In this document: piece by piece, positions 57,235 to 58,974 of the stretch
Numbering within the stretch: the stretch's first letter is position 1
Layout: every line of letters begins with the position of its first letter
Assembly (NCBI RefSeq): GCF_011290505.1
Contig: NZ_JAANPV010000007.1
Span: forward strand, 124,001-188,000
Origin: Paenalcaligenes suwonensis
Lineage (GTDB): Bacteria; Pseudomonadota; Gammaproteobacteria; Burkholderiales; Burkholderiaceae_B
Reading direction: 5' to 3'
Length of the DNA stretch: 64,000 nt
The notes under the pieces: model-generated
Database searches by the model: none
Told to the model about the DNA's origin: nothing
The model's input: the letters and a program-made list of their open reading frames with translations, nothing else
Translations under genes and position numbers: made by a program

Positions 57235-57259
57235 ATATAGTACCGCTTTGGTACTATAT
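57235..57259. promoter_or_regulatory. 25-bp palindrome upstream of the suf operon (Rrf2/IscR-type operator)
   Basis: ATATAGTACC-GCTTT-GGTACTATAT forms perfect 10-bp arms around a 5-base centre, 31 bases before the Rrf2 gene. Its 25-bp length and A-T ends match the layout of IscR type 1 sites, though the sequence differs. Self-regulation by the Rrf2 protein is the natural reading. Confidence 0.75.
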
Positions 57260-57384
57260 GCGTCAAATCACCAAGACAGACTGATCACTGTTACGCCCAC
57301 CTCTTGTAATATTTAGCACTTTTAAACAACAGTTTCCCCTACAATAGATGCTTCGTTTACATTTTCTGGCACGCAGCATCTTTC

Positions 57385-58974
57385 ATGGTTTCCCGTCACG
57401 TCGATCTCAACACCGCCTTACAGCTTTGTGCCAAAGGCGACCAACGCGCTTTTGCTGATCTTTATGCTCAGGAGATGCCGCGCATTATGGCCTACTCCCT
57501 GTCCATGCTAGGCAGCCCCTCCGCAGCTGAGAATCTGGCTTGCGAGACCTTCGTGCTGGCATGGAAAAACTCTTTAGGCTTTGACCCATCGCTAGGTAGC
57601 GCCCAAGCGTGGATTTACAGCATTTTGCGTTACCGCGCCCGAGCACACCAACAGCGCGGTACCAGCCCCAGCTCGCTGCCTAATTTCACCAACATAGGTC
57701 ACCGCTATAGCAGCGGCCTACTGGCGTACTTCCCCCGTTTAGATCAAACCTCTAAACAAGTACTGCTGATGTCCTACCTACAAGGCAAAAATTACGCCCA
57801 GATTGCCCAAAGCGAAAACACCACCGTTACCCAATTACGCCGACGCGTACGCTTAGGCCTCGCCCTGCTGCGTAAGTTATTGCACGGTCAAAGTACATCG
57901 TTAGACGAACAACAACTGCAAGTTGCCGAATACACTCTGGGCTTATTGTCTGACACTGAACAGCAGTCCATACAATCACTGCTGCAACACGACGACCAAG
58001 CCGCCTTTGACGCCTTAAGCTGGGAACAAGACCTCATTGCTCTGTGCGACTTGTTGCCACAACAGCAACCGCCGTCTGAAGCCTTGTTCACACGCATACA
58101 AGAAATGCTGGGCCTAACCCCTATCGCGCTAGGCCCCATTGAGCATAACGATCAAAACTTCCAACCCAAGCTCTATCGCGCTGATGCGGCATCTACCTTC
58201 GCCATTCCAGCCAAAGAACAAGAGCCTGAGGTCGCGATCGCCATAGCAGAAGAAAGCCTACCTGCAGAAGCCGAGCAAAACGACGACCACGAGCTGCATC
58301 ACATTAGCTTTTCAGCCAACGACGATGCGCCAGAAGCACAGCCTTACTACGCGGCCCCCAGCACAGAAAACACCGCTCACGACGATTTTTCACCCACGCC
58401 CACAGAAAGCTTTAGCGCGATCAAAAGCGAAACACGTACCGAGCAGCGAAAACCCGCTAAGACGCTGTCACCACAGCAGAAAAAAATCGCACGTATCGCT
58501 GCCATTGTGCTTGCTGTAATCGCCTTGATTATTGTGGTGATCAGCCTACTTCCCACAAAGCCGCCTATTACCGTGATAGAAATGGCTCCTCGTTATGGCG
58601 CAATCCTAATGGCACCAGGCCAATCCTCCACGCCAGGCTGGGTGATGACCTCGGACCCTGAAGGCAACTTATTGCTAGAACCGAAGGTACACACACAGCT
58701 GGATGCCAACCAAAGTGCTCAACTTTGGACACAACGCCCCTTCGATCCCAAGCCCACCTCATTAGGCCTAATCGACCCTAATCAGCCGGTTGCCTTGCCT
58801 GTCTCTCTGATAGGCACCATCGAAAACGATCAGGTGTTTGAAATCACCCTAGAAAACGCCCAAGGCGCAGCCAGTGGCCAACCCCAAGGCCCTGTGCTGT
58901 TCATTGGACGTATCGTGCGCTTTGGTGAAGTACCAGCCATGCAAGCGCCCACTACCAATAGCGAAGCGTCCTAA
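57385..58974 (+). CDS. ECF sigma factor fused to a membrane RskA-like anti-sigma factor
   Basis: One continuous 529-residue ORF. Residues about 10-90 form sigma region 2 (ALQLCAKGDQRAFADLY, LGSPSAAENLACETFVLAW, AQAWIYSILRYRARAH), and about 110-166 region 4 (LDQTSKQVLLMSYLQGKNYAQIAQ, then TQLRRRVRLGLALLRKLL, somewhat degenerate). Residues 176-240 match the RskA N-terminal anti-sigma domain (QVAEYTLGLLSDTEQQSIQSLL). A long acidic linker (250-360) leads to one TM (369-390), and 395-513 form the RskA C-terminal domain (ILMAPGQSSTPGWVM, PVALPVSLIG). Normally these are two coupled genes. Here the sigma domain would be tethered to the membrane unless released by proteolysis. No strong ribosome-binding site was seen. 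Confidence 0.85.
   Translation: MVSRHVDLNTALQLCAKGDQRAFADLYAQEMPRIMAYSLSMLGSPSAAENLACETFVLAWKNSLGFDPSLGSAQAWIYSILRYRARAHQQRGTSPSSLPNFTNIGHRYSSGLLAYFPRLDQTSKQVLLMSYLQGKNYAQIAQSENTTVTQLRRRVRLGLALLRKLLHGQSTSLDEQQLQVAEYTLGLLSDTEQQSIQSLLQHDDQAAFDALSWEQDLIALCDLLPQQQPPSEALFTRIQEMLGLTPIALGPIEHNDQNFQPKLYRADAASTFAIPAKEQEPEVAIAIAEESLPAEAEQNDDHELHHISFSANDDAPEAQPYYAAPSTENTAHDDFSPTPTESFSAIKSETRTEQRKPAKTLSPQQKKIARIAAIVLAVIALIIVVISLLPTKPPITVIEMAPRYGAILMAPGQSSTPGWVMTSDPEGNLLLEPKVHTQLDANQSAQLWTQRPFDPKPTSLGLIDPNQPVALPVSLIGTIENDQVFEITLENAQGAASGQPQGPVLFIGRIVRFGEVPAMQAPTTNSEAS

Follow-up and report, generated by a model that had tools for sequence, protein, structure and literature searches.

In the window, i.e. 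the whole stretch of 64,000 nucleotides of Paenalcaligenes suwonensis DNA that was analysed, positions 57385..58974 of the forward strand hold one open frame of 529 codons, with the ATG at 57385 and the stop codon ending at 58974, which is present as a single copy in the genome. On the basis of the open frame, Pfam matches and relatives it is described here as a single-chain fusion gene of an ECF sigma factor and an RskA-like anti-sigma factor (529 aa), and all features given below lie on the same strand unless stated otherwise. The sigma part consists of region 2 at residues 10-95 (57412..57669; Pfam Sigma70_r2 at 26-87, E 8.1e-8) and region 4 at residues 113-165 (57721..57879; Sigma70_r4_2 at 116-161, 26.9 bits against a cut-off of 25.7), with a recognition-helix stretch (147-161) that bears four basic residues and a net charge of +4. 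The junction follows at residues 166-180 (57880..57924), where split relatives show an ATGA stop/start overlap, and leads into a class I (RskA-like) anti-sigma domain (ASD) at residues ~181-246 (57925..58122), which was recognised because it aligns with the corresponding domain of separately encoded anti-sigma factors. This domain received neither a Pfam match of its own nor a zinc-finger match in the Pfam scan, and only one of the three Cys of the whole chain lies inside it. Identity to genome G006 and composition delimit a low-constraint linker at residues 247-362 (58123..58470), beyond which the sole hydrophobic stretch in the hydropathy analysis marks a single TM helix (~residues 366-390; 58480..58554). 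The RskA_C domain (residues 376-504; 58510..58896; Pfam, E 1.7e-14, over cut-off) begins within this helix in the Pfam match, and its part beyond the helix is taken as periplasmic. Between genomes G000 and G006 identity amounts to 57% in the linker (residues 247-365) vs 97% in RskA_C. The linker had been called acidic in the first-pass annotation; the linker itself, 116 residues long, is present, but with 22 D/E vs 8 K/R it is only mildly acidic.

The flanking ORFs presumably encode an IscR-like regulator, suf gene products and a DUF455-type protein. Between the fusion and the divergent gene, which we take from its sequence to be IscR-like, an inverted repeat ATATAGTACC-GCTTT-GGTACTATAT was observed at 57235-57259, which could be a putative site of the IscR-like protein itself. 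Comparison of upstream regions of family loci further revealed a -10-like hexamer TACAAT (57340..57345), which occurs within 170 nt upstream in 72 of 90 family loci (200 mononucleotide shuffles: mean 4.0, maximum 10), and a GTTAC box 45 nt before it (57290..57294), present upstream of TACAAT in 33 of 90 rows. Related rows not being independent in these counts, the spacing between both motifs is 22-23 nt in 16 rows, all of Paenalcaligenes or Alcaligenes and comprising most fused loci of these genera besides the window, a longer upstream stretch adding L034 at 23 nt, and 43-45 nt in 15 rows, namely 13 split loci (43-44 nt), the window (45 nt) and G006, while spacings of 32 nt and 100 nt were found in one row each. 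The step of about 20-22 nt corresponds to two turns of the helix, which would be compatible with an activator site that has shifted between two positions. Some split loci also carry GGAAC-like stretches upstream of TACAAT; no -35/-10 pair common to the fused loci, as expected of an ECF-type autoregulatory promoter, appeared in the upstream alignments.

When a profile of eight fusions was compared with solved structures, the best match was SigK of Mycobacterium tuberculosis (4nqw_A, E 6.9e-20), restricted to the sigma part, and PRK09646 SigK was the second-best NCBIfam match of the window protein (65.3 bits, under its cut-off of 226). An ECF sigma factor with regions 2 and 4 that is SigK-like by sequence, an RskA_C domain over its cut-off and one TM helix link the protein to the SigK/RskA type (4NQW); since one frame takes the place of the two separate genes found there, it counts as a variant of that type rather than an ordinary member. 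The lack of a zinc-finger match is a further likeness, as RskA is reported to be independent of zinc (PMC7406223).

Sought in relatives, the same single frame was found in other Paenalcaligenes and Alcaligenes genomes at 36-82% identity, among them P. hominis and P. niemegkensis as well as A. pakistanensis and A. endophyticus, and fusion recurs within the family. The frame is intact in seven of the 11 Paenalcaligenes genomes (G000, G001, G003, G004, G006, G007, G010), and all ten matching genomes of Alcaligenes (g4), eight of which were assembled as one contig, are fused. Contig ends interrupt the gene in G002 in a pattern compatible with fusion, and in G008 no more than a piece of sigma is seen, at the edge of a contig. 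In two Paenalcaligenes genomes the frame is broken, in the linker (G005) and near the start of the ASD (G009); these breaks (L007 and L011) represent decay or sequencing error, and a 603-aa open frame considered for G005 was ruled out by stops in the linker of its translation. A missed stop/start near codons 166-176, by which the first-pass annotation thought the fusion might be feigned, was not encountered: no Paenalcaligenes or Alcaligenes relative read has a stop there, and the breaks in G005 and G009 lie elsewhere. Because the intact fusion recurs in seven of 11 Paenalcaligenes and ten of ten matching Alcaligenes genomes, it is not an assembly error, and the union of sigma, anti-sigma and TM helix in one polypeptide, kept across species, is confirmed as real, neither chance nor assembly slip. 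G005 and G009 do show that errors or decay happen here, but a sequencing or assembly error as the source of the fusion is already refuted by these intact genomes and practically out of the question. The claim of a SigK/RskA-type pair, normally two genes, joined in a single membrane chain thus held with regard to frame, domains and relatives, and the first-pass interpretation as a whole is partly supported.

Separate sigma and anti-sigma frames were met at 59 fetched loci of the same family; in 58 of them the anti-sigma ATG overlaps with the stop codon of sigma (ATGA), and L065 alone has an offset of 6 nt. Judged by neighbouring genes, fused and split genes occupy the corresponding locus: a gene of 801-803 codons, which we take to be PheT in the window, is found downstream in L110, L111, L112, L118 and L140, and a DUF455 gene (Pfam) adjoins the fusion in L110 and L111 at the same place as the DUF455-type ORF of the window. 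Within genus g19 both states occur, CGII-43 (L112) being fused and Go_Leine_bin_102 (L140) split, and the ORFs to either side agree in their series of lengths. Over the first 760 columns, alignment of both genes of this pair displayed a single internal indel, one inserted base at the junction; the linker then has many more. As this one-base difference rests on one isolate (CGII-43, a draft genome) and one metagenome bin (Go_Leine_bin_102), a sequencing error in CGII-43 is possible.

The distribution of both states was traced on a tree of 90 loci (33 fused, 57 split) from 89 genomes and 27 genera, drawn from 155 matching family genomes, for which the junction columns had been removed. Genera with weak matches are represented by few loci (g2 by three) or left out (e.g. 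g8, g23, g26, g31); dropped beforehand were duplicate loci (L001, L013, L014, L015, L017), contig-end fragments or loci split over contigs (L010, L012, L065, L080, L081) and additional sigma factors encoded in these genomes (L018-L024). Nineteen genera are split only, five fused only (g1, g4, g18, g24, g39) and three mixed (g3, g19, g25). The fusions of Paenalcaligenes and Alcaligenes group together (SH-aLRT 93), and further fusions are found in g18, g24, g25 (four of five rows), g39 and g3, which also has separate split pairs; several of these further fusions are long branches flagged by the tree program. The quick tree needs six changes of the fused/split state, of which starred branches for the 'split' label enforce at least five. 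In the careful tree, joining CGII-43 to the Paenalcaligenes/Alcaligenes group, a group named after the tree had been seen, was rejected (p-AU 0.0003), and forcing all fused rows together was not formally rejected (p-AU 0.059) at a log-likelihood 383 lower. Because the 90-locus tree needs six state changes, fusion probably arose repeatedly; at least two origins are supported by these comparisons and five or six suggested. The tree alone cannot separate gain from loss of fusion, and fusion was taken as the change because of the wide occurrence of the split state.

Fusions of only 435-450 aa (L098, L100-L104; g3 and g39) branch separately and resemble the RskA_C part of the window protein less closely, and genome G054 holds both such a shorter fusion and a split pair. 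The split pairs of g13 (L056-L062, L064) have a short anti-sigma factor without a match to the window's RskA_C part. An order-level search (399 genomes, E 1e-20) yielded no fusion outside the family among the frames read, long linkers possibly hiding some, and each listed match that spans sigma and ASD has an internal stop. Four long stop-free frames outside the family (G330, G282, G641, G396) were rejected, their extra length lying before sigma and the frame ending with it; a separate RskA-like frame follows sigma in G330, G641 and G396. Among viral contigs no relative of the fusion was found.

The first-pass annotation had suspected that region 4 is degenerate and that the protein no longer transcribes. 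Pfam matches are indeed weaker in the fused clade: region 2 scores 29.9-39.1 bits in 12 distinct fused Paenalcaligenes/Alcaligenes proteins vs 41.3-57.7 bits in 11 split ones, and region 4 (PF08281) exceeds its cut-off in five of the 12 vs ten of the 11, three of the seven fused proteins that fall short having no reported region 4 match at all. These 12 proteins belong to one clade and are thus not 12 independent observations, one of them (L115) covers only the part of the G005 gene ahead of its frame break, and the E limits of the Pfam scans differed (1, 0.01 or 10). One of five fused proteins from other branches passes the region 4 cut-off, and the CGII-43 fusion is close to its split sister in region 2 (41.9 vs 43.2) and region 4 (16.8 vs 18.7). 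In several fused species the recognition-helix stretch is hardly basic or not basic at all, with net -2 in P. hominis (L004), and its mean net charge is 0.79 in the 33 fused vs 1.12 in the 57 split rows; low helix charge is not a mark of fusion, however, because seven of the eight split g13 pairs also lack basic residues in this stretch.

Poor region 4 matches and low helix charge would suit the explanation that the sigma part no longer starts transcription and persists as a membrane sensor or titrating binder, its fold being kept for binding of the ASD or RNA polymerase. Substitution rates argue against it. In Alcaligenes dN/dS is 0.014 in sigma region 2, 0.017 in region 4, 0.021 in the ASD and 0.016 in RskA_C (28 pairs from eight of the ten genomes, Nei-Gojobori-type count, pooled dS 0.85), so that purifying selection on region 4 is very strong there, and its value lies below those of eight split groups (0.046-0.243). 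Other fused groups gave 0.005 (g3) as well as 0.032 and 0.182 (g25, one pair each) for region 4; dN/dS for the window pair G000/G006 was unusable because synonymous sites are saturated. Relative to RskA_C, region 4 is not faster in fused groups (rate ratios 2.23, 1.33, 2.55) than in split ones (2.5, 1.28, 3.07, 2.15, 0.87), and the window protein retains its four basic residues. Decay of region 4 is therefore not supported, despite the weak Pfam match, and a sigma part without transcriptional function appears unlikely, although binding of the ASD alone could account for the constraint on region 4.

A fusion of sigma and anti-sigma factor is a kind already known (IutY; ECF48, ECF52 and ECF53). 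The group ECF243, with IutY of Pseudomonas putida, is defined by a FecR-type periplasmic domain and a partner TonB receptor gene; the window protein possesses RskA_C and not a FecR-type domain, no receptor-sized ORF adjoins it among the flanking ORFs of the window, and it is not placed in this group. In IutY a cytosolic ECF sigma, one TM helix and a periplasmic anti-sigma domain are likewise combined in a single polypeptide, which is activated by Prc and RseP (PMC5411451), and according to a 2022 review no other ECF sigma factor with this type of activation has been characterised experimentally (PMC8999054). It differs in its siderophore signalling with a TonB-type receptor and in its TM helix, which, to go by truncation lengths (PMC5411451), lies almost directly after sigma and so leaves no room for a full cytoplasmic ASD, whereas a complete ASD and the 116-residue linker lie between both parts here. 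The nearest domain order is that of SCO4117 of Streptomyces (ECF52), with sigma, zinc-finger domain, TM helix and carbohydrate-binding domain in one chain (PMC5826349). ECF48, ECF52 and ECF53 are described as C-terminal fusions with TM portions thought to be anti-sigma factors, and a table of the review places ECF36, 48, 52, 53, 115, 243 and 270 under proteolysis, though some of them partially (PMC8999054). In contrast to these actinobacterial groups with a zinc-finger ASD, and in ECF52 also a carbohydrate-binding C-terminus, the window fusion combines an RskA-type ASD with RskA_C, belongs to Betaproteobacteria and has split relatives in the same family; without a zinc-finger match, and with one Cys in its ASD, it falls outside ECF52. 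No paper on such a fusion in Alcaligenaceae was among the matches listed, in a literature that covered few subscription journals.

The best explanation, and in our opinion a probable one, is that a coupled SigK/RskA-like operon became one gene, whose sigma is inhibited in cis and freed by proteolysis. It starts from the single frame, the conserved fusion, the split relatives at the corresponding locus, the clustered and probably repeated origins and the constrained sigma parts. A translationally coupled operon with an ATGA overlap would have turned into a single gene when the frame changed at this overlap, and would then have been retained in fused form through the divergence of Paenalcaligenes and Alcaligenes. 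Cis inhibition and proteolytic release are inferred by analogy with SigK/RskA and IutY: the protein's own ASD would hold the sigma domain inactive at the membrane, a signal read by RskA_C would lead to a site-1 cut, and RseP would then cut in or near the TM helix and release a fragment of sigma, ASD and linker. The step special to the fusion would come thereafter, because the ASD stays attached after RseP and sigma must escape it. Either a cytoplasmic protease might degrade the ASD from the new C-terminal end and stop at sigma, or the ASD might adopt an activating conformation, as reported for RskA, which is able both to inhibit and to activate SigK (PMC7509140). The window genome encodes RseP (TIGR00054) and a prc-family protease (TIGR00225), both over their cut-offs; since both families are widespread in the controls, their presence is weak evidence. 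The lower Pfam fit of regions 2 and 4 in the fused clade was counted against this explanation, as were the low helix charge of some fused relatives, the higher region 4 dN/dS of one g25 pair (0.182) and the two broken Paenalcaligenes frames. In a possible, though more speculative, extension, repeated fusion would have led to a self-contained one-protein transducer with partial processing or an ASD-bound active fragment, in which the drift of regions 2 and 4 would be an adaptation to cis inhibition.

Activation could also do without a cut, if ASD and sigma rearranged at the membrane and the tethered sigma acted on RNA polymerase as a one-protein activator. RskA itself is reported to activate SigK via its N-terminal part, boosted by the membrane-extracellular part (PMC7509140), IutY and even its cytosolic sigma domain are said to be tightly membrane-associated (data not shown in PMC5411451), and the low-constraint linker would give reach. 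IutY nevertheless needs RseP (PMC5411451), which the window genome also encodes, and an uncut chain is regarded as rather improbable. Far less credible still is the production of two proteins, with ribosomes starting internally or reinitiating close to the junction. The ATGA coupling of the split relatives would favour it, but the window gene has no in-frame ATG between residues 129 and 241 and consequently no obvious separate anti-sigma start. TTG codons near the junction lie at 166 and 188 in the window vs 157, 161, 185, 187 and 199 in G006, none of them shared, and those common to both, 223 and 224, lie inside the ASD.

Gene fusion, possibly with anti-sigma-like sequences, has been suggested in a review as the source of ECF sigma factors with regulatory extensions (PMC8103513). 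Here split and fused states exist in one family, and in one case two members of the same genus differ in state and, at the junction, by a single base; owing to this coexistence, the questions of why sigma and anti-sigma factors mostly remain separate and how a covalent inhibitor is removed can be tested directly. If the reading as a one-protein transducer is true, signalling would have to destroy the inhibitor half and yet spare the attached sigma, or the fragment would act while bound to its inhibitor. As fusion seems to have occurred several times in one bacterial family, both designs, fused and split, are open to direct comparison.
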